IMG/VR virus record: IMGVR_UViG_3300042991_000155
Coordinates: 1-21,678 of that record
Length of the DNA stretch: 21,678 nucleotides
Source of the DNA: a virus
Direction: 5' to 3' (one strand)
Below, piece after piece: positions 2 through 20,533 of the stretch. A program made the position numbers and the translations under genes. The notes beneath the pieces were generated by a model. That model ran no database searches. It was not told where the DNA came from and worked only from the letters and a program-made list of their open reading frames with translations. Position 1 is the first letter of the stretch. Every line of letters starts with the position of its first letter.

Positions 2-337
2 CAATCGGCGCGTGATGTTGCTATGCTTGAAAAACAACGCTTGCTCGATGAAGTTTACTCAGCCGAAATCAAATCCCGCATGGCTGAAATCGAAGCCGAG
101 TTTGCAGGCAAGACCGAAGCGGTAAATGAAAACATTGCCGCACTTGAAGCCGAAATCAAACAGGCTATCATTGCACATGGCGCAAGCGTCAAAGGTTCTG
201 TGTTTCATGCGGTCTTTGCCAAAGGTCGCATTTCGTGGGATACAAAATCTCTCGAAGGTTATGCAACCGCTCATCCTGAATTGCTTACGTTCCGCAAAGA
301 AGGTGAGCCGTCCGTCAGTATCCGTGTTGCAAAATAG
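2..337 (+). CDS. Gam-like protein, 5'-partial at window edge
   Basis: The reading frame is already open at base 2 (codons CAA TCG GCG CGT) and runs through the first ATG at 23, which has no ribosome binding site. The true start therefore probably lies outside the window. The N-terminal half of the visible part is a charged helical coiled coil rich in Glu, Ala and Lys. A compact C-terminal part follows, with motifs HGASVKG, KGRISWDTK and FRKEGEPSVSIR. This layout resembles the C-terminal region of small phage Gam-like (host-nuclease inhibitor type) proteins, which protect linear DNA ends by binding them. That assignment is pattern recognition and not a search result. The stop at 335-337 lies just before the first attC core at 345, so the gene is either the last part of an earlier cassette or a native phage gene next to the array. 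Confidence 0.55.
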   Translation, partial: QSARDVAMLEKQRLLDEVYSAEIKSRMAEIEAEFAGKTEAVNENIAALEAEIKQAIIAHGASVKGSVFHAVFAKGRISWDTKSLEGYATAHPELLTFRKEGEPSVSIRVAK

Positions 338-344
338 GCACGGG

Positions 345-434
345 GTCTAACACCGCGTGCACCTGACGCGGGTGGGCGGTGGTCACAATCGGACAGGTTA
401 TGACCACCCGCGCAGGTAACGCAATCCGTTGGGT
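345..434 (+). repeat. attC site 1
   Basis: R'' is GTCTAAC (345-351) and R' is GTTGGGT (428-434). The arms ACCTG-A-CGCGGGTGG and CCACCCGCG-CAGGT pair with one unpaired A, and GCGT pairs with ACGC next to the cores. Bases 355-430 are identical to 1583-1658 in attC 5. Confidence 0.9.
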
Positions 435-464
435 TGACTATTTGCAAGAAGAAAGGAGTTTGAA

Positions 465-722
465 ATGGATTACTTTGATAAACATATCAAGCAACTGAAA
501 CGAGAAGCCGCCTTTTGCGAGAAGCATGGGCATACCATCGGTAAGGTTAACCGAGTACATGGCGCAAATGTTCAGTATAAATGCGCCAAGTGTGGTCACG
601 AAATTTGGTATCTGCAAGACGAGCCGCTTGTGTCAATGAAGCCGCAACCCAACACAGCGTTCAGCGGACGCTTCGCCACGTGGCTCTTCGGAAAATTATC
701 TGGTTCTGGCTCGCGCCGCTAA
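465..722 (+). CDS. Cassette 1: small zinc-ribbon-like protein, unknown function
   Basis: An 85-aa protein starting 31 bases after R' of attC 1, with a strong AAAGGAG ribosome binding site seven bases before the ATG. The first 60 residues are charged and contain a possible metal site: CEKHGH near residue 18, and CAKCGHE near residue 39. The C..H / C..C spacing suggests a zinc ribbon, but no family is recognised. From about residue 61 the protein is encoded by attC 2, and the frame runs through almost the whole palindrome to stop at 720-722. This tail (starting QPNTAFSG) is therefore probably not a conserved domain. Small zinc-binding proteins are common in phage accessory regions and in integron cassettes, and nothing here identifies a target. 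Confidence 0.75.
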   Translation: MDYFDKHIKQLKREAAFCEKHGHTIGKVNRVHGANVQYKCAKCGHEIWYLQDEPLVSMKPQPNTAFSGRFATWLFGKLSGSGSRR

Positions 723-737
723 CGCAAGCCGTTAGCC
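647..737 (+). repeat. attC site 2
   Basis: R'' is ACCCAAC (647-653) and R' is GTTAGCC (731-737). The arms GCGTTCAGCGG and CCGCTAACGC pair near the cores. R'' is the exact reverse complement of GTTGGGT at the start of cassette 1, and the match extends to 9 bases (GTTGGGTTG). Confidence 0.88.
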
Positions 738-763
738 TGCTTACTTGCAGGCGGAGGTATCAA

Positions 764-964
764 ATGAAAATGGTGTTCAAAGTAAAAATTCATCTCAAAG
801 ACCGCTCGCACAATATTTATAATGTGGTTGCTAAAGATGATATTGAAGCACGCACAAAAGCCGAAACGATGGAAGTTCAGTCTTTCAATGAACTTACAAA
901 TGCTCCTTATCCTGGAACGGCTTATTGTGAAACTGAATTTGTCTGCGAAATAGACGCAGGCTAA
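764..964 (+). CDS. Cassette 2: small hypothetical protein
   Basis: A 66-aa protein. ATG 764 is chosen because GGAGG at 753-757 sits six bases upstream. The frame is open back to 581, but that extension overlaps attC 2 and the previous gene. The protein begins MKMVFKVKIHLKD and has alternating hydrophobic and charged residues, followed by a predicted helix (DDIEARTKAETM). The pattern suggests a small alpha/beta fold. No family is recognised. The TAA stop lies inside the R'' core (GGC TAA C) of attC 3, so the cassette end supplies the stop codon. It has no visible promoter of its own and would depend on transcription through the array. Confidence 0.72.
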   Translation: MKMVFKVKIHLKDRSHNIYNVVAKDDIEARTKAETMEVQSFNELTNAPYPGTAYCETEFVCEIDAG

Positions 965-1086
965 CAAAGCGTGCACTGGACGGTGGGGATTCTGTGGCAT
1001 TTTCAGCAGTTTCCTCGCCCGAAGTTTTATCCACTTTACTGGCATTCTCTACCCCTCCCCACCGCCAGTAACGCAATCCGTTGGGC
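959..1086 (+). repeat. attC site 3
   Basis: R'' is GGCTAAC (959-965) and R' is GTTGGGC (1080-1086). The arms GACGGTGGGG and CCCCACCGCC flank a long variable loop. R'' matches the start of cassette 2 (GTTAGCCTGC, 10 bases). The left half is clearly related to the left half of truncated attC 11, sharing TGGGGATTCTG. Confidence 0.88.
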
Positions 1087-1113
1087 GGCTCTCGCTCAAC
1101 AAAGGAGAATCGC

Positions 1114-1341
1114 ATGAAACTGAATAAGAAAATCGAAGAATTATTTGATGAGTATTTGTCAACTTTGGATGATACCGACAAAGATCAAACCTATGATACC
1201 GATAGAGGAATTGCCCGCACTGGTATTCGTGGCTTTCAGGAATGGCTTGCTCAACAGAAACGCCGCCCAACAAAGCGTGCAGTTGACGTGGGGCGGGCTA
1301 GCGAAATTAAGGGCGAAGGTAATACCGCCCCACGTAACTAA
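1114..1341 (+). CDS. Cassette 3: small acidic hypothetical protein
   Basis: A 75-aa protein. ATG 1114 has AAAGGAG at 1101-1107, six bases upstream; an open extension to 1081 has no such support. The N-terminal 50 residues are charged and helical (KLNKKIEELFDEYLS, then a run of Asp and Thr, then GIRGFQEWLAQQ). From about residue 51 the sequence is encoded by attC 4, which explains the basic, low-complexity end containing TKRAVDVG. The cassette is 270 bases long, close to the practical minimum. No family is recognised, and only the N-terminal part is likely to be functional. Confidence 0.7.
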   Translation: MKLNKKIEELFDEYLSTLDDTDKDQTYDTDRGIARTGIRGFQEWLAQQKRRPTKRAVDVGRASEIKGEGNTAPRN

Positions 1342-1356
1342 CGCAAACCGTTAGCC
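1265..1356 (+). repeat. attC site 4
   Basis: R'' is GCCCAAC (1265-1271) and R' is GTTAGCC (1350-1356). The arms AGTT-G-ACGTGGGGCGG and CCGCCCCACGT-AACT form a nearly perfect 15-bp stem with one bulged G. R'' matches the start of cassette 3 (GTTGGGCGGC, 10 bases). Confidence 0.9.
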
Positions 1357-1395
1357 CGCTCTGGCTGTTCAAATGAGCAACAAAGGAAAATAGTC

Positions 1396-1578
1396 ATGTC
1401 TCAAAACGCAAGTGTAGTATTCGAGTTAGCGATGGACGCTGAATTCGTAGATGGTAATTTGGCGGAAGCAATCACCCTGTACGAAGCTGCCGCGCAGTTG
1501 TACATTGAGCAGGGATCACCCGCAGACGCGGAGGTCTGTCAGCACATGGCAGAAATCGTAAACGAGAAAGCGGGCTAA
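1396..1578 (+). CDS. Cassette 4: small helical, TPR-like hypothetical protein
   Basis: A 60-aa acidic protein. The ATG follows an AAAGGA ribosome binding site at 1382-1387. The sequence reads as two amphipathic helices (NLAEAITLYEAAAQLYIEQG, then PADAEVCQHMAEIV). The pattern resembles one tetratricopeptide-like helical hairpin, which would suggest protein binding, but this is only an impression. The TAA stop lies inside the R'' core of attC 5 (GGC TAA C), as in cassette 2. A seven-codon ORF (1373-1393, MSNKGK) just upstream ends before the start and is probably chance. Confidence 0.7.
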   Translation: MSQNASVVFELAMDAEFVDGNLAEAITLYEAAAQLYIEQGSPADAEVCQHMAEIVNEKAG

Positions 1579-1662
1579 CAAAGCGTGCACCTGACGCGGG
1601 TGGGCGGTGGTCACAATCGGACAGGTTATGACCACCCGCGCAGGTAACGCAATCCGTTAGAA
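1573..1662 (+). repeat. attC site 5
   Basis: R'' is GGCTAAC (1573-1579) and R' is GTTAGAA (1656-1662). Bases 1583-1658 are identical to 355-430 of attC 1, a 76-bp exact repeat. R'' matches the start of cassette 4 (GTTAGCCCGCT, 11 bases). Confidence 0.9.
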
Positions 1663-1671
1663 GGCTAAAAC

Positions 1672-2433
1672 ATGTTCACTTTGCACAACGGCGATTGTCT
1701 CGAATACATGAAGTCCCTGCATCCCAAATCGGTTGATGTGTCATTCACTTCGCCCCCTTACAACAGGAAGCGAAACGATAAATATAAGAATTACACCGAT
1801 CAGGTTGAAGATTATTATGGTTGGATGTGTGATGTCATTGATGAATTACTGCGAGTTACAAAGCGTCATGTGTTTTTCAATATTCAGGCTAATTACTACA
1901 ATCGCCAAGATGTCTATAAAATCATTGGCAAATATTCTGAAAAGATTGTGGAGATTGTTATTTGGGAGAAAGATAACCCAATGCCTGCAAGCGGTCTGAA
2001 TATCACAAACGCGGTTGAATACTTTATAGTTTTAGGTGATGAGCCTTTGCGCTCAAACAGAACGTACACCAAAAATGCTATACATTCATCCGTCAATTCA
2101 AAAATGGGTAAAATCCATAAAGCAGTAATGCATCAAGATATTGCAGATTACTTTATATCTACATTCACAAAAGAAGGTGAAAGCGTTTTAGATTGTTTCT
2201 TAGGTCTTGGCACAACTGGTATTGCTTGCGTGAAATTCAATCGAGATTTTCAAGGAAGCGAAAAGGATGTTGAGTATTTTTCCATAGCCGAGAAGCGCAT
2301 ACAAGAAGCAGTCTTATCGCAAGGGTTCTTTACGCCTTCTAACAAAAGCGTGAACCCGACAAAGGGGAGTCTGCCGACATCCCAAGCAGAGTCCACGCCT
2401 CAAACTTTATTCAATTTAGAAGGCTTGTCCTAG
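1672..2433 (+). CDS. Cassette 5: DNA amino-methyltransferase (N4-cytosine or N6-adenine), orphan
   Basis: A 253-aa protein that should transfer a methyl group from S-adenosylmethionine to an exocyclic amino group in DNA. The catalytic motif IV TSPPY is at residues 26-30, followed by N31. The cofactor motif I, DCFLGLGTTGIA, is at residues 174-185. Motif IV before motif I is the beta-class order. SPPY often marks N4-cytosine enzymes, but N6-adenine enzymes with this motif exist, so the base cannot be fixed. No restriction endonuclease lies beside it, so it is an orphan, as is common in phages. The ribosome binding site (AAGG, 1661-1664) overlaps R' of attC 5, and the start lies only 16 bases after the recombination point. 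The last 31 or so residues, beyond the catalytic domain, are encoded by attC 6. Confidence 0.93.
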   Translation: MFTLHNGDCLEYMKSLHPKSVDVSFTSPPYNRKRNDKYKNYTDQVEDYYGWMCDVIDELLRVTKRHVFFNIQANYYNRQDVYKIIGKYSEKIVEIVIWEKDNPMPASGLNITNAVEYFIVLGDEPLRSNRTYTKNAIHSSVNSKMGKIHKAVMHQDIADYFISTFTKEGESVLDCFLGLGTTGIACVKFNRDFQGSEKDVEYFSIAEKRIQEAVLSQGFFTPSNKSVNPTKGSLPTSQAESTPQTLFNLEGLS

Positions 2434-2467
2434 CCCGCCCCTTTGCGGGTTACGCAAGCCGTTGGGC
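2337..2467 (+). repeat. attC site 6
   Basis: R'' is TTCTAAC (2337-2343) and R' is GTTGGGC (2461-2467). The arms AACCCG-ACAAAGGGG and CCCCTTTG-CGGGTT pair near the cores. R'' matches the start of cassette 5 (GTTAGAAGGC, 10 bases). The left arm lies inside the methyltransferase gene. Confidence 0.87.
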
Positions 2468-2491
2468 GCTTCGTGGCGCAAGGAAAAACGC

Positions 2492-2890
2492 ATGAACATA
2501 AACGATATTACTGAAATACTAAAAACTACCCCACGCATGGGAGCAGAAAAAGACGAACCAGAAGGAACACGATTTATCAAAATAAGCGATTCTCTTGCAA
2601 ACAAAATTGTACGAGAATTAGAGTCATGGATTGAAGGCTCTACTTGGGAATTGCCAGAAGGATGGCACGATGAACCTACGCCAAAATTGATAGGCGAGAA
2701 TATTGCAAAAATAAATGAAATCCGTAATAGGTTGGACGAGATGGGAATTGACGCTCATTTGACCCAAGTTTTTTACAGCGTTTATAAAACTTTTGCAATA
2801 TTCAAAACGTCCAGTAATCGAGAAGGGAAAATTATATTGCACAATGGTAAATGGGAATTACTCTGGAAAGATGAGTCTGACCCACTATAA
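2492..2890 (+). CDS. Cassette 6: hypothetical protein
   Basis: A 132-aa soluble protein. ATG 2492 has AAGGA at 2480-2484 upstream; the open extension to 2462 overlaps attC 6. It contains FIKISDSLANKIVRELE, a helix of a type often seen in small uncharacterised phage proteins. A conserved-looking WELPEGWHDEP segment follows, then a long helix (GENIAKINEIRNRLDEMG) and a strand-rich end (IILHNGKWELLWKD). No catalytic motif is visible. The stop (2888-2890) lies just before R'' of attC 7, so nothing in the protein comes from the attC site. It is the largest cassette protein with no assigned function, and a coherent fold makes it a likely real gene. Confidence 0.8.
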   Translation: MNINDITEILKTTPRMGAEKDEPEGTRFIKISDSLANKIVRELESWIEGSTWELPEGWHDEPTPKLIGENIAKINEIRNRLDEMGIDAHLTQVFYSVYKTFAIFKTSSNREGKIILHNGKWELLWKDESDPL

Positions 2891-2893
2891 CGC

Positions 2894-2985
2894 GCCCAAC
2901 AAAGCGTGCACCTGACGCGGCTACTGTGTAGCCGTTCAGAAGTGCGCGGCAGAAACCGCCGCGCAGGTAACGCAAACCGTTCGGC
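2894..2985 (+). repeat. attC site 7
   Basis: R'' is GCCCAAC (2894-2900) and R' is GTTCGGC (2979-2985). The arms ACCTG-A-CGCGGC and GCCGCG-CAGGT pair with an unpaired A. A second hairpin (GGCTAC / GTAGCC) lies in the loop. R'' matches the start of cassette 6 (GTTGGGCGC, 9 bases). Confidence 0.9.
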
Positions 2986-3000
2986 GTAAAGGAGCAAACG

Positions 3001-3234
3001 ATGATAATAAATGAACCATCTCGCATGTATGCCGCGCTTCGTTGCATTGAAAGCGAACTCGAAAAAGAGAAGCCTTCCATAGCGACTATTCGCGCAATCA
3101 TTCTTGAGTCAGGGCGTGAATTACGCCCAACAAAGTATGCACTTGACGGGGGCTACGCCCCTGTCAGCCTGCATGTTTTGCAAACAAAATCCCGCAAGGC
3201 GAAGGCTCGGCGCGGATACCGCCCCCGCAAGTAA
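3001..3234 (+). CDS. Cassette 7: very small hypothetical protein with attC-encoded tail
   Basis: A 77-aa protein. The ATG has a strong AAAGGAG site at 2988-2994, six bases upstream. Only the first 41 or so residues are cassette-specific: a helical segment (MYAALRCIESELEKEK) and a second helix (IATIRAIILESGREL). From about residue 42 the protein is encoded by attC 8 and becomes very basic (KSRKAKARRGYRPRK). The entire cassette is about 263 bases. No family is recognised. The strong ribosome binding site argues for translation, but the functional part must be tiny. Confidence 0.62.
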   Translation: MIINEPSRMYAALRCIESELEKEKPSIATIRAIILESGRELRPTKYALDGGYAPVSLHVLQTKSRKAKARRGYRPRK

Positions 3235-3248
3235 TACAGCCGTTAGAA
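3125..3248 (+). repeat. attC site 8
   Basis: R'' is GCCCAAC (3125-3131) and R' is GTTAGAA (3242-3248). The arms are GTAT-GC-ACTTG-A-CGGGGG and CCCCCG-CAAGT-A-ATAC. Most sites pair GCGT with ACGC here, while this one pairs GTAT with ATAC, a compensated change. R'' matches the start of cassette 7 with one mismatch (GTTCGGCGTAA). Confidence 0.88.
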
Positions 3249-3270
3249 AGCAGGGCTAGAGGTGTCGCTA

Positions 3271-4062
3271 ATGAAGTTACTTGATCTATATTGTTCCGCA
3301 GGTGGCGCAGGTTATGGTTTTAGTTTGTTGGGTTTTGATGTAGTAGGCGTGGACATCAAGCCTCAACCACATTATCCATTTGCCTTTCACCAGGCGGATG
3401 CCCTCGAATTTCTAGCGGCTCATGGAAGCGAGTTTGATTACATTCATGCAAGCCCACCATGTCAGGCACACTCTGCAATGACAAAAGGCAGGTGGCAAGA
3501 TAGGGTAAATAATCATCCACAACTTATCGAGCCAACAAGAGAATTACTTTTGAAACTTGGGAAGCCATTTGATATTGAGAATGTCCCTGGTGCGCCGCTT
3601 ATAAATCCAATTATGCTTTGTGGCACTATGTTCAATCTCACCACAAAACACGGTTCACAGTTGCGCCGTCATCGTTACTTTGAAACAAACTGGCAGGTTG
3701 GCTTAGTGCCTCCATGTAACCACAATAAAGGTTCTGCCATTGGTGTTTATGGTGGCGGTCAACATCCTGGGCGCAGAAACATTCCAGCAACAATTGGAGT
3801 ATATGGTCACGCAGGCGGTTCTAGCAATCGAGATAATCTTTTGCAATTTGGTACACAGGATCGTCGTGACGCAATGGAAATACAATGGATGTCAGGCAAT
3901 GAATTATCCCAGGCAATCCCACCTGCTTACACAAAGTTTTTAGGTGAAAGGTGGCTTGCAAATACCGCCCTGCTTTCTAACACAGCGTGGAGCGGACTCG
4001 TTGAAAGCGGTCGCACTTTGCCCGCCGAAGTTGTGAAAGTTGAATTGTCTGAGCCAGCGTAA
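3271..4062 (+). CDS. Cassette 8: C5-cytosine DNA methyltransferase, orphan
   Basis: A 263-aa protein that should methylate carbon 5 of cytosine in DNA using S-adenosylmethionine. Motif I, DLYCSAGGAGYG, is at residues 5-16 (the usual form is DLFCGAGG). Motif IV, ASPPCQ, is at 60-65 with catalytic Cys64. Motif VI, ENV, is at 103-105. Motif VIII, QLRRHR, is at 130-135, and a motif X-like AIPPAYTKFLGE is at about 215-226. It is short for the family and has a small target-recognition region (about 140-195), as in other phage-borne enzymes. ATG 3271 is preferred over GTG 3262 because AGAGG (3258-3262) lies eight bases before it and overlaps the GTG. No endonuclease partner is present. The last 28 or so residues are encoded by attC 9 and are probably dispensable. 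Confidence 0.94.
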   Translation: MKLLDLYCSAGGAGYGFSLLGFDVVGVDIKPQPHYPFAFHQADALEFLAAHGSEFDYIHASPPCQAHSAMTKGRWQDRVNNHPQLIEPTRELLLKLGKPFDIENVPGAPLINPIMLCGTMFNLTTKHGSQLRRHRYFETNWQVGLVPPCNHNKGSAIGVYGGGQHPGRRNIPATIGVYGHAGGSSNRDNLLQFGTQDRRDAMEIQWMSGNELSQAIPPAYTKFLGERWLANTALLSNTAWSGLVESGRTLPAEVVKVELSEPA

Positions 4063-4086
4063 AGCCGCTCACGCAAACCGTTAGGC
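3975..4086 (+). repeat. attC site 9
   Basis: R'' is TTCTAAC (3975-3981) and R' is GTTAGGC (4080-4086). The arms GCGTG-G-AGCGG and CCGCT-CACGC pair near the cores. The two ends of cassette 8 match over 15 bases (GTTAGAAAGCAGGGC), the longest such match in the array. Confidence 0.9.
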
Positions 4087-4110
4087 GGACACGCCCTTGA
4101 AAGAGGTAAA

Positions 4111-4344
4111 ATGCACAAAAATGAAATTTCGCTAATGGAAAGTCTTGCACAAGCTACTTTGAATGTGGCTGAAAATGAGAAGTGGTCTGCAACTGATGTC
4201 ACCCGCATGTTGGCTAATATGGCAATGAAAGCCGCCCAACACCTGCGTGCAGTGGATGGGCTTTACTGTCAGCATTGCGGAGAACTCTTGTCCAGCCATC
4301 TAGTCACCGAACGGGTCGGTCATTGCCACCACACCAACCACTAA
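4111..4344 (+). CDS. Cassette 9: small hypothetical protein with Cys/His-rich tail
   Basis: A 77-aa protein with AGAGG upstream of the ATG. The first 41 residues are two helices (ISLMESLAQATLNVAEN, then ATDVTRMLANMAMKAA). From about residue 42 the frame enters attC 10 and encodes LYCQHCGELL followed by GHCHH. These residues resemble a zinc-binding site (C..C then C.H), but since they come from the attC palindrome the likeness may be accidental. No family is recognised. The cassette is only about 273 bases long. Confidence 0.65.
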   Translation: MHKNEISLMESLAQATLNVAENEKWSATDVTRMLANMAMKAAQHLRAVDGLYCQHCGELLSSHLVTERVGHCHHTNH

Positions 4345-4359
4345 CGCAAACCGTTGTGC
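4234..4359 (+). repeat. attC site 10
   Basis: R'' is GCCCAAC (4234-4240) and R' is GTTGTGC (4353-4359). The arms GCGTGCAGTGGATGG and CCAACCACTAACGC pair imperfectly. The ends of cassette 9 match with one mismatch in nine bases. The spacer after R'' (ACCTGCGTGC) is longer than in the other sites. Confidence 0.82.
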
Positions 4360-4397
4360 GTTTCCTTGCTCAACACAATATCTAAAGGAGAAATATC

Positions 4398-4589
4398 ATG
4401 GCAAAACAATTTTTACTCGCATCAGATATACAAGAGAACGACCTATCATTTGAACAGGTCGTGAAGCCAGTAATGGCGTGGTTAGCAAAAAATAAACATC
4501 CACACATGAGTATCATCATTGATTCTACTCGCGCCGAGTTGGTCGAAGGCGTTGAGTGCGTAGCAACAGATGAGTTCGTGCAAGATTAG
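4398..4589 (+). CDS. Cassette 10: small hypothetical protein
   Basis: A 63-aa protein with AAAGGAG (4384-4390) seven bases before the ATG. The pattern is a helix (SFEQVVKPVMAWLAKN), a hydrophobic strand (HMSIIIDSTRAELVEG) and a second strand (VECVATDEFVQD), which suggests a compact alpha/beta protein. No family is recognised. It stops at 4587-4589, a few bases before R'' of the last attC. It is the last cassette before the terminator, and therefore probably the oldest if the array grew from an attI site to the left. Confidence 0.72.
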   Translation: MAKQFLLASDIQENDLSFEQVVKPVMAWLAKNKHPHMSIIIDSTRAELVEGVECVATDEFVQD

Positions 4590-4594
4590 CACAC

Positions 4595-4695
4595 GCCCAA
4601 CAAAGCGTGCACCTGACGCTGGGGATTCTGCGGCAATCTCAAGCAGTTTTCTACGCCTTTTCCTTTTCCCAGTTGGACGGCTTCGCCGTCCCAGC
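4595..4695 (+). repeat. attC site 11, right half lost
   Basis: R'' GCCCAAC (4595-4601) and the left arm GCGTGCACCTGACGC are intact and related to attC 3 and 7. The expected right arm (CAGGTAACGC, then an R' starting GTT) is absent. After CCCAG (4668-4672) the sequence changes to a GGACGGC hairpin and the phage terminator. The CCCAGC at 4690-4695 could partly pair with the left GCTGGG. The exact breakpoint is uncertain. Confidence 0.72.
4675..4691. other. Small GC-rich stem-loop at array/phage junction
   Basis: GGACGGC and GCCGTCC form a perfect 7-bp stem with a TTC loop. No T-run follows directly. It lies immediately left of the strong terminator and may be part of it, or a remnant of the truncated attC 11. 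Confidence 0.6.
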
Positions 4696-4730
4696 AAAAC
4701 AGGACTGACCGCGTGGTCAGTCCTGTTTTT
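4696..4730. terminator. Strong bidirectional rho-independent terminator
   Basis: AAAACAGGACTGACC and GGTCAGTCCTGTTTT form a 15-bp stem around a GCGT loop. A T-run follows on the plus strand, and on the minus strand the A-rich left arm acts as the T-run. It sits between the convergent cassette array and structural operon, so it can end both transcripts. Confidence 0.92.
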
Positions 4731-4833: not shown

Positions 4834-5093
4834 AAATTCACCCAATTCTCTAAGAATACTGGTGGTGTTGGAAACACCACATCATCAGGGTTGACAAAAT
4901 CCTGCGGGATGTCTTTGAGAGCCTGAATATAATCAAGTCCAGCCTCGCGCTCGATGTCTGTTAGTGTGTTGCTAGTTAATACCCATCCAACATTGAGCAA
5001 TATTTTATTTCTGGTCGCCTTAATTATTTGCCATTTCTCGTCCGCCGTGTGCACATAGTTTGCAATGTTGGAAAAAAGCAATTGAACCTGCAT
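4830..5093 (-). CDS. Phage tail assembly chaperone-like (APC-type) protein
   Basis: An 87-aa protein. The start at 5093 is chosen because its ATG overlaps the stop of the tail-tip gene as TAATG; an upstream in-frame ATG at 5120 would lie inside that gene. It contains KWQIIKATRNKILLNVGW, then YIQALKDIPQDF and DDVVFPTPP. This pattern (W..IK..RN.LL, then Y..AL.DIP, then a Pro-rich VVFP) is typical of small proteins found directly after tail-fibre genes. These are annotated as tail assembly chaperones and are thought to help fibres fold or attach. The position directly after the large receptor-binding gene agrees. Confidence 0.7.
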   Translation of the reverse strand: MQVQLLFSNIANYVHTADEKWQIIKATRNKILLNVGWVLTSNTLTDIEREAGLDYIQALKDIPQDFVNPDDVVFPTPPVFLENWVNL

Positions 5094-8000
5094 TACGGCA
5101 CCTCGTAAAAAATGTTCCACGCTATGTAATCACCGGCCGCCACTGTGACCGCTGGTACGGTGCCGAAATTATTACCTACAGTTACAGCACCAGCAAACTG
5201 GATTTTCCCAGTATTTGCAAAATACGCCTGTATGTCATAGGTTACATTTACGCTAGCATCATAATATAGGCACGTCCCGCATATCTGAAATAGAGATGCG
5301 CCAATTCCGACTACAGGCACAGTCACGGCAATGGCATTTCCAGGCGTCCCTGCTGATGTCGCAGTCATCACTCCCTGAAACATGACTATTTTTCCAAGCT
5401 GAAAATATTTTGAATATCCGATTGTTTTTGTTATTGTTGCTGATTGTGTCCAAACGGGTGTAAAAGCTGCCCATGTAAACTGTGCAACTAAATCCGTTTT
5501 TAGTTGTGCCATTGTCCTGGCAACCCACGCGCTCGCCTTGCCTTGCAGGATACTATCATTGACTACTGCGGGCAATTCGTCGCCCGTATTATTTCCTGAT
5601 AGATTAGACCCTGTGACTGGACCCACAATGGCTAAACTTTTATCATTTCCAAACGTAGCCGCAAGCGACTCTGTTTCAGATCCATTTGGGGTTGTATAAA
5701 TTTCAACTCGTGTTCCAGCCGCAGTGGGTGTGAAATTTTCATTTGCTACTAGCCTGACCTCTGCAACAGTGGATGACCAATCTGTCCCTACTCCATCCAC
5801 GGCGGGAATAGTTTGCTCTGCCCCTCTCGCATTCACGCGGCCTAGCATTTGATTTATTTTGACGTTGGTAGCGGAGAGCCATGTTCCATCTTGCGTCAGA
5901 AATGTCACAGATGGCGACCGCGCAGAGTTTACAGAATAAACCCTATATGCAGGACTGTCTGTTTCGTCTCCTCCAAGGTTGACTTTGTTTTTCCCTCCCC
6001 AGGAAAGTCTGCTTAAAATCGTACCTATATTGAGCGATTTCAACAATTTGAAATAAGCGAAGTCGGTATCACCTCCGAATGCTCCTCCGTCATTGAACTG
6101 GATCTCCGTGTCAGCCCCTGCCGGAGTTCCCCCGCTCATAGTTTCTATCTTGTCGCGTATGGCGTTTTTCGTTGCAGGCTCAAGGCTTTCGTCCCATGCT
6201 ATTGCATCGTAAGCCTCATCAAGAATTATTGGATTGCTTGAAAATGTCTTAACACCTGCGATTGTTTGATCGCCAGTGAGAGAAACAAAGATCGCATTCA
6301 GTAAAGTTTTTATGCTACCCCACAAAATCTTTCCCAACTTTCCAGTAGTGTTCTCCCAAAAAGGTATTTCGTCATCATCTGTAAGCGTAGCCACCGGCGC
6401 ACCATGAATTGCCGCGCCCATATCAAATGAAGAGTTGCTTGAATTTTCAAGATGGTCAGCCAGTGCCTCAAAACTATTGATGTACTCTCCGATCTTTCCT
6501 AATGGTTTATCGCCCGCATTTGCAAAAATACCCCCAGCAAATATATTTCCATACAAATTGTTATGGTCATAAGTGACTGCATAAACATCTCCATCCAGTC
6601 CGGTTTCTAGTTTTGAAAACGTCTCACCATCCCAGCGGACTATCCTGCCTACACTGGTTAGATCTCCTATTGCAGGAAACGATCCGCCGATAATTAAATC
6701 CGCACCGACAACTTTCATCGAATACGGATAGCGAATATAAATTCCGTCCAAAGGAATTCCGCCACCGACACTTGAAAATTCATGAGTGACTATATTCCAT
6801 CTAGCAATACCCTGTGTGTTTGCAACTTCATCCACATTGCCAATAATTCCACCAAAGTACAAATACCCATTGTACATAGCCAGTGAGAATATTCGTCCGC
6901 TATACCCACCAGTCAAAGGATTTATGATTACTCTCGTCCAAACATTACTGGCAATGTCATATTTATATAAACTTGATCCATAGGGTCCGATACCAGAATC
7001 AATTGGGAATATCCCGCCGAGATATAAAATCCCGTTGTCAATCACTACGCTTGTTACATCTCTAATTCCTTCCGTAAAATAGCCGAAAGGCGGAGCGTAA
7101 TTAGTCCATGACCCACCTGCGAATTTTGAAACACTGGAATATTGAGTTGCCCATAAAGTAGTTCCGTCAAGCGCCATGCCAGCAACAGCATTACCAAGCC
7201 CCCCATCCATATCATCGAACGTATCTGTCCCTTCCCCCAATACAGTCACGTAAGCCACGGAAACGCCATTTGCGTCTGTGAAATCACCGCCGATATAAAT
7301 TGCAGAACCTAACGGAACTATCGATCTAACCCTCCCGTTCATTCCGGTCCCGATGGCAGACCACGTGCCTGTTTTTATATCGTACGCTGCAATATTATTT
7401 GCAGACACATTGGCTATCTCTGTGAATAATCCGCCTACGTACAAAATACCGCTATCACTAACCGCCATCGACTGGACTACAGTTCCCTGCACATCACCAA
7501 TCGCCGCCCAAAACCTAGTCTCTAGCAGTCCCGCGTCGTGGGCTGTTGTCCATTCGTTCTTCAGCCATTCTACGTCCTGGGTAAGGCGTAACTCATTATC
7601 AAGCAACAGGGAGTTTAGTTCTACTACTACGTTGCTATACTGTGACCCGTCAAAGTCGCATTGTATGCCGAGGATGCGGTAACTAGTTTCAACGCCCATC
7701 ACGTCCAACATGATACGGTCGCCCATGATGTAATCTTCAAATACACGCGGACCCACGCCGTCATATATTTTGACAGTAATTCCTTTTTGCGGGTCTTTGG
7801 AGTTTGCGAGTATCGCTGCGCCATAAGTGGAGGCACTTGTAGATGTCTGCGCTAATCTCGCGTCTAATAATTTCTCACGGCGGCGGCGGTTGGTGATGGA
7901 TGTATTATCAGTAACGGTAAGATTACCCGCCTTGTACGCTACACGGTAAGCATTGTGTATATCGTCCCCGCGCTCGTCGCTACCAACCTCAACGCAATTG

Positions 8001-8659
8001 ACGCCAACGCGAAAATAAACAGTCTCGCTTTTGTCTGTGCCGAGTCCGTTTTTATAAGCAGATAGAACAAATGTTCCTGCTGAATAATTTATGTCAAAAT
8101 CAATTCCAGTTTTTGCAAATTTACGCAATACGTCAAGCACAGTCATACCAACGTTGAAAGAATAATCCTCGCTGTCTGTCCATGATACTGCGCTACTGTC
8201 AACGGTTGCGCTAAAGTCATATGTGAGCACAGTCAGCCCGCCACGTGCTTTTGCTTCGTCAATCAGTGTTTTTAGGATGTACGCTTTTGTTACATTAGTA
8301 AACGTGCGGGTTGTTTCTGTGCTCCCATTATCCCAGACAATAGCGTCTTCCAACAGTGCCAACGCGCCACGGCCTGACAGTGATACCCACCGCCCGCCGC
8401 CCTCACTCATATCAGCCTGATTTAGTTTGATATTGTCGATGAAAAATCCGTTGCGAGATGATCCGCGATAATACGACATTGCAAACTGTCCGCTCGTTAC
8501 ATCGGCGGCCGCTGCGCTATCAAGCGGGATAGATAACAGCCCGCTGCCTGGCTCATTGATTACATAGTACAGGTGAGACTTATCAGTCGGTAAGATATTT
8601 TTTTGCGTGGTTAAGTCTGTGTCAAATAATCGCCATTCGCTGCTGTCTGTGGTTGCCAT
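5093..8659 (-). CDS. Large tail-tip/receptor-binding protein with beta-propeller
   Basis: A 1188-aa protein that probably forms the tail tip and contacts the host surface. Residues 1 to about 380 look like the N-terminal region of siphovirus Gp37-type tail proteins encoded after Dit. From about 383 to 735 there are repeated strands with the pattern YVGGLFTE...AAYDI.TGTWSAIGTGMNG, and again YIGGDFTD, YLGGIFP, YFGGIIGN and IIGGSFP. This is a kelch-like beta-propeller. From about 740 onward there are fibre features: SLTGDQTIAGVKTFSSNP, and a linker (PAGADTEIQFNDGGAFGG) common in environmental phage fibres. The C-terminal 150 or so residues form a strand-rich tip domain (WAAFTPVWTQSATITK, then GKIVMFQGVM). 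The host receptor cannot be predicted. Confidence 0.85.
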   Translation of the reverse strand: MATTDSSEWRLFDTDLTTQKNILPTDKSHLYYVINEPGSGLLSIPLDSAAAADVTSGQFAMSYYRGSSRNGFFIDNIKLNQADMSEGGGRWVSLSGRGALALLEDAIVWDNGSTETTRTFTNVTKAYILKTLIDEAKARGGLTVLTYDFSATVDSSAVSWTDSEDYSFNVGMTVLDVLRKFAKTGIDFDINYSAGTFVLSAYKNGLGTDKSETVYFRVGVNCVEVGSDERGDDIHNAYRVAYKAGNLTVTDNTSITNRRRREKLLDARLAQTSTSASTYGAAILANSKDPQKGITVKIYDGVGPRVFEDYIMGDRIMLDVMGVETSYRILGIQCDFDGSQYSNVVVELNSLLLDNELRLTQDVEWLKNEWTTAHDAGLLETRFWAAIGDVQGTVVQSMAVSDSGILYVGGLFTEIANVSANNIAAYDIKTGTWSAIGTGMNGRVRSIVPLGSAIYIGGDFTDANGVSVAYVTVLGEGTDTFDDMDGGLGNAVAGMALDGTTLWATQYSSVSKFAGGSWTNYAPPFGYFTEGIRDVTSVVIDNGILYLGGIFPIDSGIGPYGSSLYKYDIASNVWTRVIINPLTGGYSGRIFSLAMYNGYLYFGGIIGNVDEVANTQGIARWNIVTHEFSSVGGGIPLDGIYIRYPYSMKVVGADLIIGGSFPAIGDLTSVGRIVRWDGETFSKLETGLDGDVYAVTYDHNNLYGNIFAGGIFANAGDKPLGKIGEYINSFEALADHLENSSNSSFDMGAAIHGAPVATLTDDDEIPFWENTTGKLGKILWGSIKTLLNAIFVSLTGDQTIAGVKTFSSNPIILDEAYDAIAWDESLEPATKNAIRDKIETMSGGTPAGADTEIQFNDGGAFGGDTDFAYFKLLKSLNIGTILSRLSWGGKNKVNLGGDETDSPAYRVYSVNSARSPSVTFLTQDGTWLSATNVKINQMLGRVNARGAEQTIPAVDGVGTDWSSTVAEVRLVANENFTPTAAGTRVEIYTTPNGSETESLAATFGNDKSLAIVGPVTGSNLSGNNTGDELPAVVNDSILQGKASAWVARTMAQLKTDLVAQFTWAAFTPVWTQSATITKTIGYSKYFQLGKIVMFQGVMTATSAGTPGNAIAVTVPVVGIGASLFQICGTCLYYDASVNVTYDIQAYFANTGKIQFAGAVTVGNNFGTVPAVTVAAGDYIAWNIFYEVP

Positions 8660-8668
8660 GTTTATCCT

Positions 8669-9448
8669 TTATAAATAAGGGGCGTAAAAACTAACACGAA
8701 CCGTCCCTGTTGTATGCGTCGCGTCTGCAATTGACAGGGTATTTGCGCCGGTGTCAAATACCATCAGCGCGGGCAATCCGCTATGGGTGACGTTACCGAT
8801 TACGTTTGTTCCTAAATCGTTTGTCGCTACATACTGCCCGTTGATGGTTGATATTGTCACAACTCGCGGGCTTGCAATCGTGCCGGTGTAAGTCAGTGTG
8901 CAGCCGTTAGTGGAATTAGTTATTGTCGTATTAGACAACGGCCCAGTGAGCGTAATCGTTGCGTCGCGTTCCTCGATTGTGCCAGGGTTCGTTACTATCA
9001 TTGCTTTAGGGTTGGCATCTATTGTGGTCGTGTTGTCTGCAATGGCAGTGCTAAGACGCCAGAAAGGTGATGTCATAATAAATTCTACAGTCACGCGGGC
9101 GAGTTTGTCAGATAACCGCTCGGCGTCTATTGCACCATCTACGGAAGCAAGCGCATTTCTAACTGTGGAATCTTCCATTGTCATTGCTAAAGTTTGCTGG
9201 GTACGCACTGAAAACAATTTCCGCATAGTATCAAGTGCGGTTTCCAACGCGGCTGCTGATGCGGTAACTACGACAATTCCAAGCGTGATTTTTCTTTGGT
9301 CGTAATATTTCTGTACAAACAAAGTTCCATGACGGTACGGCAATAAAATATTATCACCGCGCCGATCCGCCATGTCTAAATAGTCATTGACCAATGTAAC
9401 GCGGCCAAAACTTGTTAATGCCGTTCCTCCATAAGTCCAAGTCGTCAT
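8669..9448 (-). CDS. Distal tail protein (Dit-like)
   Basis: A 259-aa protein. In siphoviruses, Dit forms the hexameric hub joining tail tube and tip. The N-terminal part (WTYGGTALTSFGRVTLV, then ITLGIVVVTAS) has the strand pattern of Dit N-terminal domains. A helix follows (AALETALDTMRKLFSV), and then a strand-rich galectin-like C-terminal half with many Thr, Ile and Val. Its start overlaps the tape-measure stop as ATGA. The position, between tape measure and tail-tip genes, is the standard Dit position. The assignment rests on position and pattern together. Confidence 0.78.
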   Translation of the reverse strand: MTTWTYGGTALTSFGRVTLVNDYLDMADRRGDNILLPYRHGTLFVQKYYDQRKITLGIVVVTASAAALETALDTMRKLFSVRTQQTLAMTMEDSTVRNALASVDGAIDAERLSDKLARVTVEFIMTSPFWRLSTAIADNTTTIDANPKAMIVTNPGTIEERDATITLTGPLSNTTITNSTNGCTLTYTGTIASPRVVTISTINGQYVATNDLGTNVIGNVTHSGLPALMVFDTGANTLSIADATHTTGTVRVSFYAPYL

Positions 9449-11481
9449 GCTGCCGCTCCTGTGTAAGCTATTTTTTTCATAGCCGCTATAATTGACGCCT
9501 CGGCCGTTTCCTTTTTTGGATTATTGACAATAATATTATAAACCGCTCCACCTGCCGCCGCCTGTCCTTTTGGCGTAATTGTCACACGTTCACCGCCGGA
9601 CGCTGTATCACCGTTACCCATGCGGAATCCTTCATTGCCGTATGCCATTGGGATTAGAAAATCGCCGCCGGTTGCGTGTTCGCGTTCGTCTGGTGATTTT
9701 CCGCCTGTTGTGCCTGTGGGGGCTTTGTACGGCGTGCCCGTTGACGTGCTGGGGTATTTTATAGTTGCATAAGCAGACGCGGTAATTTTAGCTTTCGCGG
9801 CCAGTAGTGCTTGATTGTCTGTCTCACGTTGTGTATATAATGATACCTGTGCAATTGCGGCCGCTTCGTTATTTGACGCGGTTATAGATGAGGCGGATGT
9901 TACCGCGTCTTGCAGGCGTAGGGTTTCCGCGTCAACTTTACGTTGCTCGGTTAGTACGTTCTCACTTTGTAAAATCCCTTCGATGGTAGCGTCTGCAACT
10001 TCTCGGCGGCGGTTGGCTTCGTCAATATCGGCCTGTGTTTTTATGCCGGTCTTTACCGCGTATTCATCAATCGCTTTCTGTTCACTGTCAAGCAATCCGC
10101 CCGCTGATACACCGACAAGTATCATGTCGTAAATCATATTATTTGCGGCTTCGTGCCAAGAGGCTTGTAGTTTATCAATGCCCTCTTGTGCTATATCCAC
10201 GTCACCAAGTTTTGTTAATGCCTCTTCGCTGTTTCTTCCGTATTCCTTTACTGCATCAGCGTACTCTCTTTCTTTGTCTATTTTGTTTTGAGTTGCTTCA
10301 TTATGGCTTTCCGAGTAAGAAACTTGATCTTCTGCAATCGTGCGGGACATACTTTCCATGTCCTGATTGGATTGTGATACCGCGTCAAGCGCGTCTTGAT
10401 AATCTTTCAGCGCGTCTTTTGCGCCTTGCACGGCTTCTTTTTGTGCGTCGATTGCGGAAGCCGCCGCCGCCGCGGCCACTGCTGCTTCGTCTTGTGCTGC
10501 TGAGTTTTTATCTTGTGCAACAGTATTTTCCTCTACTGTCGTTGTGTTTTTTCCAAAGTAAGTATTATATAAAATAGCTAAAGGATTTATCTTTAAGTAA
10601 AGTTCTTTTATTTTTTCTAATCCAGATGCAACTTTTGGATTAGTTTTTGAAAAATTATCCCATGCTATTTCTGCCTGTTTTGCGTTAGATGTCCATACAC
10701 TTATTGAGTCGGTTAGGTTATCAAATAAATTTGTAACAGGCTCTATTGTTGCCTCACCAAACGCCATACTCAAACCTAACTTTGTATCCGTAAGGTTATC
10801 AAGGCTTACTTGATAAGCATCTGATTTCTGTATTCCTTTTTCAGTCATTATCAAATTTTCATCAATAGCATTTGACATTGACCGAATACCATTGCCGCCT
10901 TTTATTAATAATTTCTCAAGTTCTGGTCCAGCTTTGCTTCCAAATTTATCAATTGCAAACTGTGTACGCTCCACACCAGCGGGAAGAGATAAATAAGTAT
11001 CTGATAATCTTGCAAGGCTTTCAATGTTTGGCTCTATGCCGTCTTTTTGCGCGTTTTTGAAACCCATTTTTAATGCGTCGTAACTAATACGCACGTCATC
11101 GGAAATTTGAATTAATCTACTCGTTTCCTCGGCGGACGCGCCAAGCGAGCGTGACATATTTTTTACTTCCTCAGCGTAGTTTACAAACTCCTGACCTGTG
11201 GCATTCCACACCTGCCCCGCGATCCGCGCCGCGTCTGCTACCATCATATAGGCCGAGCGTAAATCAGTAATAGACATAGTTGACTTCTTTACTGCATCGA
11301 CTTGTCCAGTCACCGCGCTTTTTGAGTTTGTAACTGCTTTGTTATAGGCAGCCTGAGACACACCGGCTTTATCAAGCCGATGCGCCAAGATGTCCATTTG
11401 TTCCTGTACTTTCTTGGCGTCGGCTATAAAGTCGGTAGCGTCACCTTCTATGGGTATTTGAATGGGTTCTGTTACTGACAT
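9445..11481 (-). CDS. Tail tape measure protein
   Basis: A 678-aa protein that fixes tail length and lines the tube during assembly. It has a helical N-terminal region (ADAKKVQEQMDILAHRLDKA), then long helical stretches and an Ala/Gln/Asp/Glu-rich coiled-coil section in the middle (roughly residues 320-520). The end is flexible and Gly-rich (ATGGDFLIPMAYGNEGFRMG), a pattern typical of tape-measure C-termini. By the usual rule of about 0.15 nm per residue, the tail would be about 100 nm long. It starts inside the end of the chaperone frameshift frame, so the two genes are coupled. GAGG lies four bases before the ATG. Confidence 0.87.
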   Translation of the reverse strand: MSVTEPIQIPIEGDATDFIADAKKVQEQMDILAHRLDKAGVSQAAYNKAVTNSKSAVTGQVDAVKKSTMSITDLRSAYMMVADAARIAGQVWNATGQEFVNYAEEVKNMSRSLGASAEETSRLIQISDDVRISYDALKMGFKNAQKDGIEPNIESLARLSDTYLSLPAGVERTQFAIDKFGSKAGPELEKLLIKGGNGIRSMSNAIDENLIMTEKGIQKSDAYQVSLDNLTDTKLGLSMAFGEATIEPVTNLFDNLTDSISVWTSNAKQAEIAWDNFSKTNPKVASGLEKIKELYLKINPLAILYNTYFGKNTTTVEENTVAQDKNSAAQDEAAVAAAAAASAIDAQKEAVQGAKDALKDYQDALDAVSQSNQDMESMSRTIAEDQVSYSESHNEATQNKIDKEREYADAVKEYGRNSEEALTKLGDVDIAQEGIDKLQASWHEAANNMIYDMILVGVSAGGLLDSEQKAIDEYAVKTGIKTQADIDEANRRREVADATIEGILQSENVLTEQRKVDAETLRLQDAVTSASSITASNNEAAAIAQVSLYTQRETDNQALLAAKAKITASAYATIKYPSTSTGTPYKAPTGTTGGKSPDEREHATGGDFLIPMAYGNEGFRMGNGDTASGGERVTITPKGQAAAGGAVYNIIVNNPKKETAEASIIAAMKKIAYTGAAA

Positions 11482-11738
11482 AATACCTCGGCTTCATTAA
11501 GTAGTTTCTCCATAGCGGGGTTTTTTTGCGCCCATTCTGACCATGCTTTACTTTCGGCGCGGGAGTGATATGCAATTGCTATGTTTTCAGACAGTATCAT
11601 TCGGCGAAGTTCTCCATAGTAAAACTGTCGGCGGCCAGTAATTGCCTCAATCCCGAATCGGTCAATTTTTTGTAGTGTGTCTATTTCGCGGGAATATCCG
11701 TCGCCTCTACAATGTCCGAGGGCGTCGGATTTAACACG
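11472..11738 (-). CDS. Tail assembly chaperone, -1 frameshift extension (gpT-like)
   Basis: This open frame has no start codon of its own. It follows the upstream chaperone in the -1 frame and is open for 88 codons from the slippery site to a TAA at 11472-11474, which overlaps the tape-measure start. Translated, it begins RVKSDALGHCRG and continues with DRFGIEAITGRRQFYYGELR, then a helical end with AWSEWAQKNPAMEKLL. With residues 1-110 of the first protein it would give a fusion of about 198 aa, like lambda gpG-gpT. Without it, about 190 bases between chaperone and tape measure would be unexplained. The fusion is inferred from frame, position and slippery sequence. Confidence 0.82.
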   Translation of the reverse strand, partial: RVKSDALGHCRGDGYSREIDTLQKIDRFGIEAITGRRQFYYGELRRMILSENIAIAYHSRAESKAWSEWAQKNPAMEKLLNEAEVLCQ

Positions 11739-12067
11739 TTTGGGATTTCAATTTCTCCAAGGTACACATTAAAAATATTCTTATAAATCCAGCTTATCAA
11801 ATCATGTGTATCTTTACGCGGAGAAGCGGGGAAGTTGTCAATTGACAAATTATCTGGCATGTTTTCAAGTTCCCATTTTTCCACACACGCAAAAACGCCA
11901 GGGAGTTGCAGGTTGTCATAAGCTGATAAAAACGCCCTGCCCTCGGCGTCTGTCTTTGGCTTATCAATACCGATCTCTACCGCTTGCGCTTGTGGGATGG
12001 TAAGAGGGTCGGCGATTGTCACCGACCCTTTGAATCTTTCTATGGGGCTAATTATTACTTTTGACAT
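11681..12067 (-). CDS. Tail assembly chaperone (gpG-like), 128 aa
   Basis: In siphoviruses the chaperone coats the tape measure so that the tube can form around it. This 128-aa acidic protein lies in the expected place, between tail-tube genes and the tape measure. It begins MSKVIISPIERFKGSV, has a helical centre (FACVEKWELENM), and ends in a helix (HDLISWIYKNIFNVYLG) and a loose tail. The canonical heptamer CCCAAAC at codons 108-110 allows a -1 shift into a longer product. The sequence alone would not identify it; the gene order and frameshift signal do. Confidence 0.83.
   Translation of the reverse strand: MSKVIISPIERFKGSVTIADPLTIPQAQAVEIGIDKPKTDAEGRAFLSAYDNLQLPGVFACVEKWELENMPDNLSIDNFPASPRKDTHDLISWIYKNIFNVYLGEIEIPNVLNPTPSDIVEATDIPAK
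11715..11744 (-). promoter_or_regulatory. -1 ribosomal frameshift signal (CCCAAAC plus hairpin)
   Basis: On the minus strand C CCA AAC (11744-11738) is in the chaperone frame, codons Pro109 and Asn110, and fits the X XXY YYZ rule exactly. After an 8-base spacer, TCCGA and TCGGA (11729-11725 and 11719-11715) can form a 5-bp hairpin with a 5-base loop. A competing stem, CGCCCTC with GAGGCG (11702-11707), could extend it or form a pseudoknot. Confidence 0.82.
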
Positions 12068-12104
12068 TTCATTATTCTTTCTGCCTGATACACAGGCTTA
12101 TAGT

Positions 12105-12596
12105 TTATGCGACTGTGATAGCGGTTGTGCCCCAGTCTGGGGAAGTTCCGCCGCCGACATGAGCCAATTTACAGGAGTAAGTACCCGCGGCTGGGTCAAC
12201 GGTGTAATCGGTGACAATAATCGAATTATCAGCACCAAAAACGGGGTCGCCTGTTGCCCAATAATTTTGTATGCCGAAATAGATACCAAAAGCGCGTGGG
12301 GTAAGTCCACCATTCAACGGTTCAAGCACTGTGTGAGAGCCTGATAAAGCGGCAACTGCACCGCTGCCACTTGCAGCCGTTGCGTCGGTATTATCAAACG
12401 GGCCGGTAATAGTTACGGCAATATTGCCTTGCCCCGCCAACATTCCTTTTACGGCCTCTTGCAAACTTGATACGTCCACCTCGTCGTAGGTGATACCAAT
12501 TGACCCGTAAGATTGAATCGGGATGTCACGAAGCACGCCGCCCGAATCTTCGATCTGCATTTTTGTAAAACGTCCTACTGTTCTGCCTGTTGCCAT
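12105..12596 (-). CDS. Tail tube-like structural protein 2
   Basis: A 163-aa strand-rich protein that starts MATGRTVGRFTKMQIED and includes ITYDEVDVSSLQEAVKG and NIAVTITGPFDNTDA. The composition, length and position (just before the chaperones) fit a major tail tube protein that polymerises into the tail shaft. The upstream neighbour has a similar start and shares GPFDNT/GLFDNT-like and GDPVF/NDPAF-like segments, so the two may be paralogs. A ribosome binding site, GGAGATTACT, precedes the ATG. Which of the two forms the tube cannot be decided from sequence. Confidence 0.68.
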   Translation of the reverse strand: MATGRTVGRFTKMQIEDSGGVLRDIPIQSYGSIGITYDEVDVSSLQEAVKGMLAGQGNIAVTITGPFDNTDATAASGSGAVAALSGSHTVLEPLNGGLTPRAFGIYFGIQNYWATGDPVFGADNSIIVTDYTVDPAAGTYSCKLAHVGGGTSPDWGTTAITVA

Positions 12597-15214: not shown

Positions 15215-16117
15215 TTAGGTGTTACCCAAATGAGCAAGCCGCCAATTCCCATAATAGAAATTGTATGAGCCGAAGAATTTGAAGTAGTAAGTACCACCTT
15301 CAACGGTCTCAGGGTCAAACCAAGCGGTTTGAAGTGAGGGTTGTTCGCGCATCACAATCAAAATTGGTTTGATCTGCATTGAGGAAGCGACCAAAGACCA
15401 TGCGGTTGAATCGAATTGTTCAGACACTACATAGCGGGTCTGGCCTGCATATGGGTTATTCTCGCGGTTGGCAGTGTCATAAGCAAACGGGTTATTACAA
15501 ATTTGAGCTGCGACGCGCTCCAATTCAGGAGACACAACAAGCAGGTCATAATTGTAGCCAGCGTATTCGCCTTGATCGTTGCGGAATTTGCGAGAAGCCA
15601 CGCGGACGGTTTCAAAGTTATCAAGCGAGAGAGGCAAGGCACTAACATTGTCCTGTCCGGTCTGATACTCAGCTCCCTTGTCAATATGAGCGGCATTGTA
15701 AAACGAAAGGCCGTCATAGCCCGCACCGTAATTAGTCACGGCGTCACCATCATTCAACGCCTTGAACGCGCTGTTGCTGATGTGGAGTGGGAAGTTTACG
15801 CCAGCGGCACGGCTTTTCTGTTCGAGTGTTCCGGTTTGGTCATCGCGTGCGGCTGTGTAAGACAGGCCAACAGTGACTTCAAAATCCTTCGGCTTGACCT
15901 GCAAGGTCTTTTCGATGAATGAGCGTTTCTGAGTGCGGCCTTTGCTTTCAACAGGCATAGGGGATTCTCCCAAATCTACCAAGTCGATTGAGCGGGCGTC
16001 CATCGGCAACATTTTAGCGATGGATTCCCATGGCTTGACAGCGGGCATTGGGGCGGTAAGGAAGCCAGTCTTGGCGGCTACCAGTAAATGCTGGGGTACG
16101 TTTCCTGAAATTGTCAT
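15215..16117 (-). CDS. Major capsid protein (Mu gpT-like)
   Basis: A 300-aa protein forming the head shell. Features typical of the Mu gpT-like group are the early acidic region, the central segment YDGLSFYNAAHID, then PLSLDNFETVRVASRKFRND and YDLLVVSPELERVAAQI. A region with VVSEQFDSTAWSLVA and KPILIVMREQPSLQ follows, and a YYFKFFGSYNFYYGNWR ending. Its size agrees with gpT (about 305 aa). A GGAGA ribosome binding site lies upstream. It follows the decoration and protease genes, in the order usual for Mu-type head modules. A hairpin follows the stop. Confidence 0.9.
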   Translation of the reverse strand: MTISGNVPQHLLVAAKTGFLTAPMPAVKPWESIAKMLPMDARSIDLVDLGESPMPVESKGRTQKRSFIEKTLQVKPKDFEVTVGLSYTAARDDQTGTLEQKSRAAGVNFPLHISNSAFKALNDGDAVTNYGAGYDGLSFYNAAHIDKGAEYQTGQDNVSALPLSLDNFETVRVASRKFRNDQGEYAGYNYDLLVVSPELERVAAQICNNPFAYDTANRENNPYAGQTRYVVSEQFDSTAWSLVASSMQIKPILIVMREQPSLQTAWFDPETVEGGTYYFKFFGSYNFYYGNWRLAHLGNT

Positions 16118-17622: not shown

Positions 17623-17628
17623 TATCAC

Positions 17629-20530: not shown

Positions 20531-20533
20531 GTT

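Follow-up and report, generated by a model that had tools for sequence, protein, structure and literature searches.

The DNA considered here is the IMG/VR virus record IMGVR_UViG_3300042991_000155 (below, the window), which is linear, 21,678 bases long and without end repeats, and is probably a fragment of a phage genome. Between positions 345 and 4695 it carries an integron-type array: eleven left halves (R''/L'') and ten right halves (L'/R') of attC sites, in one shared orientation, delimit ten cassettes, also in a single orientation, with one open reading frame (ORF) each (428-4695, recombination point G|TT). The array is co-located with terminase, portal, capsid and tail genes, and it is convergent with the head/tail operon, with an inverted-repeat terminator between them. 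An earlier note on this sequence had claimed ten complete attC sites, one truncated site and ten single-gene cassettes facing a phage operon; the alignment, the covariation of the stems and the model searches described below agree with it. The integron integrase model TIGR02249 has no match in the window (no intI), and the array on this fragment is a cluster of attC sites lacking an integrase (CALIN).

attC sites, cassettes and flanking genes

In the alignment of the ten complete attC sites, all on the + strand, the spacing of the consensus parts R'', L'', L' and R' is fixed, and 91% of the cells in the whole named structure are paired; shifting the partner by 1-3 columns lowers this value to 26-35%. 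In the inner stem, 98% of the cells are paired and 8 of 12 pairs show changes on both sides. The folding of the bottom strand beats that of shuffled sequences in seven of the ten sites (z -1.2 to -4.4) and not in three; folding energy alone is a weaker argument for attC than covariation. A first model, R1, was derived from the window attC, and a second, R2 (alignment A3), from 69 matches that lie exclusively in chromosomal loci of Anaerolineae-class genomes. R2 matches exactly the ten complete attC (E 2e-28 to 1e-11) and the truncated site (4595-4719, E 1e-8), with no further matches anywhere in the window, and this model scan, a check of the type proposed in the earlier note, agrees with its ten complete sites and one truncated site; the test is not fully independent because the sites used to train R2 were collected with R1. 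A scan of the window with Rfam gave nothing exceeding the gathering scores. Judged from sequence, structure and covariation, these are genuine integron sites.

Five of the ten complete sites have a short form of 91-93 nt. The truncated attC 11, without L' and R', is 87-91% identical to attC of Virus Rctr41k (9305-9405; 87%), of an Anaerolineae array (L045) and of the contig G026, and all these matches end at 4695. Between attC 1 and attC 5 the identity is 97% over 87 nt (344-430 and 1572-1658), a stretch that includes the loop, though their genes differ.

In an integron, G|TT marks the point after which the bases are those of the following cassette. A match is therefore expected between the two ends of a cassette, but not necessarily between the two ends of an attC. 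Seven of the ten window cassettes indeed show perfect complementarity of their own ends over 9-15 bp (the longest run, 15 bp, is that of cassette 8) and the remaining three each contain a single early mismatch, whereas the run within a single attC is only 3-5 bp (permutation 0/100,000). Taking all phage arrays together, an own-end run of at least 8 bp is found in 97/123 cassettes versus 15/151 same-site pairs, and chromosomal arrays behave in the same way. This pattern is the footprint of cassettes that moved as circles cut at G|TT. The proposal of the earlier note that the phage gathers accessory genes by integron recombination is supported by this footprint, but the fragment itself has no intI.

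Nearly every window cassette contains a small ORF with a ribosome-binding site. Apart from the two methyltransferases (cassettes 5 and 8), no window cassette has an informative family match, and the matches in PADLOC are to the methyltransferases only. The methyltransferases probably protect the phage DNA against host restriction; the remaining small proteins, of unknown function, are probably of anti-host type.

On the left, the array is preceded by an ORF that is open at the contig edge and has no Pfam or PHROG match. It is 33-38% identical to G002:25064-25615 and G031:4434-4730, and since the homologue in G002 lies two genes before RecT, the ORF 23-337 that precedes attC 1 is probably a phage gene and not a cassette. 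As these homologues are in phage contigs, the array seems to have phage genes on both sides. The G+C content is equal on both sides (46.3% and 46.2%). The features of the window are listed in Table 1.

Table 1. Positions of attC sites, cassettes and phage features in the window
Feature	Position	Strand	Content or evidence
attC 1	345-435	+	alignment, R2
attC 2	647-738	+	alignment, R2
attC 3	959-1087	+	alignment, R2
attC 4	1265-1357	+	alignment, R2
attC 5	1573-1663	+	alignment, R2
attC 6	2337-2468	+	alignment, R2
attC 7	2894-2986	+	alignment, R2
attC 8	3125-3249	+	alignment, R2
attC 9	3975-4087	+	alignment, R2
attC 10	4234-4360	+	alignment, R2
attC 11, truncated	4595-4695	+	identity to intact attC; R2 E 1e-8
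Cassette 1	428-730	+	ORF 465-722, 85 aa, weak zinc-ribbon match
Cassette 2	731-1079	+	ORF 764-964, 66 aa
Cassette 3	1080-1349	+	ORF 1114-1341, 75 aa; homologue likewise a cassette ORF in G021
Cassette 4	1350-1655	+	ORF 1396-1578, 60 aa
Cassette 5	1656-2460	+	ORF 1672-2433, N6/N4 DNA methyltransferase; PF01555 E 1e-27, phrog_67 E 7e-48
Cassette 6	2461-2978	+	ORF 2492-2890, 132 aa
Cassette 7	2979-3241	+	ORF 3001-3234, 77 aa
Cassette 8	3242-4079	+	ORF 3262/3271-4062, C5-cytosine methyltransferase-like; phrog_363 E 3e-34; PF00145 weak, below cut-off
Cassette 9	4080-4352	+	ORF 4111-4344, 77 aa
Cassette 10	4353-4695	+	ORF 4398-4589, 63 aa; PHROG families of unknown function
Phage-type gene upstream of array	2-337	+	ORF open at contig edge, ATG at 23
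Bidirectional terminator-like repeat	4696-4729	.	15-bp perfect inverted repeat, A/T flanks; between convergent units
Tail protein	5093-8659	-	Sipho_Gp37-like N-terminus, kelch/propeller repeats
Distal tail protein Dit	8669-9448	-	phrog_33 E 4e-20
Tape-measure-like protein	9445-11481	-	position and homologues
Major tail protein-like	12105-12596	-	phrog_10528
Major head protein	15215-16117	-	phrog_371 E 1e-24; 54% to G021
Head maturation protease-like	16591-17628	-	phrog_328 weak; 42% to G021
Portal protein, Mu type	19082-20530	-	PF06074; 63% to G021
Terminase large subunit, cut by contig end	20534-21646	-	phrog_2 E 5e-22

Related phages and chromosomal integrons

A search of IMG/VR with one attC pattern, of the short-attC type, gave 31 contigs, and a second pattern gave 14 additional contigs by pattern match alone. 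R1 confirms attC in 31/31 of the former and in Virus Rctr41k. Seven contigs with attC arrays or sites are circularly closed (G005, G016, G017, G021, G024, G027 and G030), by end repeats of 99-127 bp, which is the size of an assembler word; G024 has a single attC only. Phage hallmark genes were checked in the closed G021 and G016. The portal, major capsid protein and protease of G021 are 63%, 54% and 42% identical to those of the window, and its array of 11 sites separates the late operon from the recombination/replication module. Terminase, endolysin, RecT, exonuclease and primase/helicase genes are present in the same closed genome, so that in this relative, terminase, replication and cassette genes lie together on one circular contig, an arrangement that the earlier note had proposed to look for. 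A related phage with the same array position, for which the note had proposed a search, is G013: it repeats the junction of the window, with a last attC, a bidirectional inverted-repeat terminator and a convergent tail operon. In G016 the array is downstream of the tail end and convergent, with about 4 kb between them, and arrays are found upstream of terminase in Rctr41k, G012, G015 and G026. No such attC is present in the portal relatives G337 and G338 (portal 61%), which indicates that the array is accessory. Back-translated patterns of the capsid or tape-measure protein revealed no close relatives in IMG/VR; the capsid relative surfaced only through the attC pattern scan.

The cassette content differs among related phages, and related cassettes occur in phages that are otherwise different. 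G003 shares a cassette with Rctr41k (98% over 254 nt), which in G003 is alone and has other flanks; this lone cassette (20392-20645, L054), with no attC before it, is possibly a single-cassette insertion outside an array. The same cassette gene is found in G005 (27124-27344) and G021 (39333-39552), 90% identical over 221 nt and ending exactly at R' and R'', followed by a different attC in each; the comparison suggests a replacement of attC without the gene. Single attC or second small clusters occur on the opposite strand and far from the main array in G022, G027, G005 and G006, a hint that a phage genome may offer more than a single point of insertion.

Two other contigs were considered as phages and set aside. 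A 41.8-kb Anaerolineae contig with this attC (G032:C95) has no gene in common with the phage set and looks chromosomal, and L187 (G034:C358) is a contig from a metagenome-assembled genome (MAG) without a clear phage structural gene. At 11573-12592 this Chloroflexota MAG contig has an intI in the same direction as an attC, and the protein shares 77% identity with the IntI of Rctr41k. The contig may be a mobile island or a degraded prophage.

In the 298 genomes that make up the class of one Anaerolineae MAG, IntI above the cut-off is found in 73 and window-type attC in 84. In all nine loci where both could be located, IntI and attC are divergent, which is the usual arrangement of intI and its array. 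The chromosomal attC are nearly all of about 130 nt, and the median cassette spacing is 785 bp, versus 350 bp in phage arrays and 308 bp in the window; the medians per array hardly overlap between phages and chromosomes (Mann-Whitney p 4e-7). The selection of phage contigs by a short attC is not the cause of this gap, because an attC difference of 40 nt is too small to account for 400 bp, and the choice of the window did not depend on the pattern. Nor do missed sites explain the chromosomal spacing, because the new search with R2 added hardly any. The match of the attC suggests that the array phages probably infect Anaerolineae.

Source of the integrase and rival explanations

In the four contigs where IntI precedes an array, it is directly upstream and in the same direction (4/4). 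The scores are 383 bits for Rctr41k, 428 for G020 and 405 for G028, which exceed the TIGR02249 cut-off, and 204 for G026, which is below it; G008 has a fragment of IntI. In the proteins of Rctr41k, G020 and G028, both the catalytic residues and the insert specific to IntI are conserved, as read by eye. In six of the seven closed phage genomes, TIGR02249 finds no tyrosine recombinase of any kind, although the same model gave matches in 14/14 control genomes. A single origin of the phage IntI was considered and not retained: the label requires two changes on the tree, whose deep support is weak, and the IntI of G026 is a long branch.

The gene annotated as "xerD, integrase-like" in Rctr41k (L007, KX853513.1, 4680-5678) encodes an integron integrase (383 bits with TIGR02249) and precedes six attC. 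No open-licence paper naming Virus Rctr41k was found, and its array with intI is apparently unreported.

The reading that we hold to be quite probable is that a tailed phage carries in its genome a CALIN, flanked by an early-type gene on one side and by the distal end of the tail operon on the other, and that IntI in the infected cell exchanges the cassettes. IntI would excise and insert cassettes through the folded, single-stranded bottom strands of attC; its likeliest source would be the chromosomal integron of the Anaerolineae host, or a co-infecting phage that bears intI. The truncated last attC and the terminator would fix the right edge of the array and stop read-through into the tail operon, and the cassettes would supply two methyltransferases against restriction and other small proteins of anti-host type. 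Several observations weigh against this reading. The window portal has no relative in the 298 Anaerolineae-class genomes, and none of its cassette bodies is shared with them at the DNA level, where only attC matches; we therefore infer the host rather than observe it. The intact stems, open ORFs and shared cassettes speak of past movement, not of movement now. Finally, the window is a linear 21.7-kb fragment, and intI may lie further to the left, outside the contig.

This last point leads to a complete integron in cis, whose intI and attI would lie to the left of the sequenced part. In its favour, IntI directly precedes arrays of the same attC type in the four other phage contigs, three of them with conserved residues and insert. 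However, the window array is directly preceded by an early-type phage gene and not by attI or intI, and its nearest array-bearing structural relatives, G021 and G016 (both closed) and G013 (a fragment), have no TIGR02249 match, which makes this alternative unlikely. It is also rather improbable that the array is passive cargo, which illegitimate recombination brought in a single time and which has since ceased to move or to matter. The truncated last attC and the absence of intI on the fragment would fit, and Qi et al. have suggested illegitimate capture for some phage CALINs (PMC9892861), but the window has ten intact stems and open ORFs with ribosome-binding sites, the content varies among related phages, and distant phages share a near-identical cassette, even if these observations attest to past movement only.

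The earlier note had named two findings that would undo its claim. One is a CALIN of the host chromosome lying by chance beside the end of a prophage, which could be envisaged because Anaerolineae chromosomes are rich in such attC and the contig is a fragment. It is very improbable, given that G013 has the same junction, arrays occur in closed phage genomes such as G021, the gene on the left is of phage type, the G+C content is equal on both sides, the cassettes are about half as long as chromosomal ones, and the short form makes up half of the attC. The other is a chimeric assembly at 4660-4700, exactly where attC is truncated; it is hardly credible, since the junction is followed by a complete inverted-repeat terminator, and the order of array, terminator and convergent tail operon recurs in G013.

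Known phage arrays and meaning

Phage CALINs and integrons are already known as a kind. Qi et al. (2023, PMC9892861) found them in 21 phages among 10,705 GenBank phages, partial genomes being excluded, and showed that, of six attC from virulent phages that they assayed, five are recombined by IntI1. The idea of the earlier note that phage-borne arrays seem rare stands, but they had already been published. Their CALINs (e.g., that of Tetrasphaera phage TJE1) resemble the window in being integrase-free arrays in a phage, with one cassette direction and methyltransferase cassettes. In contrast, the text of that study never mentions Chloroflexota, and the window comes from a group of uncultured phages; its attC are of Anaerolineae type and its array is at the end of the tail operon. 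Rctr41k, from a denitrifying anaerobic methane oxidation (DAMO) enrichment, has the same attC type and a methyltransferase gene in the array, but it differs by its own intI, an array upstream of terminase and other structural genes. The chromosomal integrons of Anaerolineae (Chloroflexota) share the attC consensus and the complementarity of cassette ends, and differ from the phages by divergent intI, attC of about 130 nt and longer cassette spacing. The reversed integrons of Treponema (PMC3607928) are chromosomal and from another phylum, and the feature likened to them is found in other phages, not in the window. A tblastn search of INPHARED phages with the Rctr41k IntI returned, besides Rctr41k, mainly Vibrio, Shewanella, Acinetobacter and P1-type records. 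Judged against open-licence papers, what seems to be new is a widespread group of uncultured phages with Anaerolineae-type attC, cassettes of about half size, attC of about 91 nt and co-directed intI (4/4).

A broader reading, which we put forward tentatively, is that phages of Anaerolineae and relatives may keep integron lineages of their own, suited to small genomes, that phages without intI borrow the enzyme in trans, and that the anti-host cassettes form a shared pool. The co-directed intI, short attC and cassettes of about half length might, with the same reserve, be adaptations of these lineages to small genomes.

Integrons have been studied almost entirely as gene-capture tools of bacteria, often for resistance genes. 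If phages routinely carry such arrays, some with the recombinase, they would spread cassettes between cells and swap anti-defence genes fast. The borders of the arrays also mark, base by base, small unknown phage genes that act as exchangeable accessory units, and would thus provide a list of candidate anti-host proteins. Some phages, probably of Anaerolineae, seem to acquire and exchange small genes through a system best known from bacteria.

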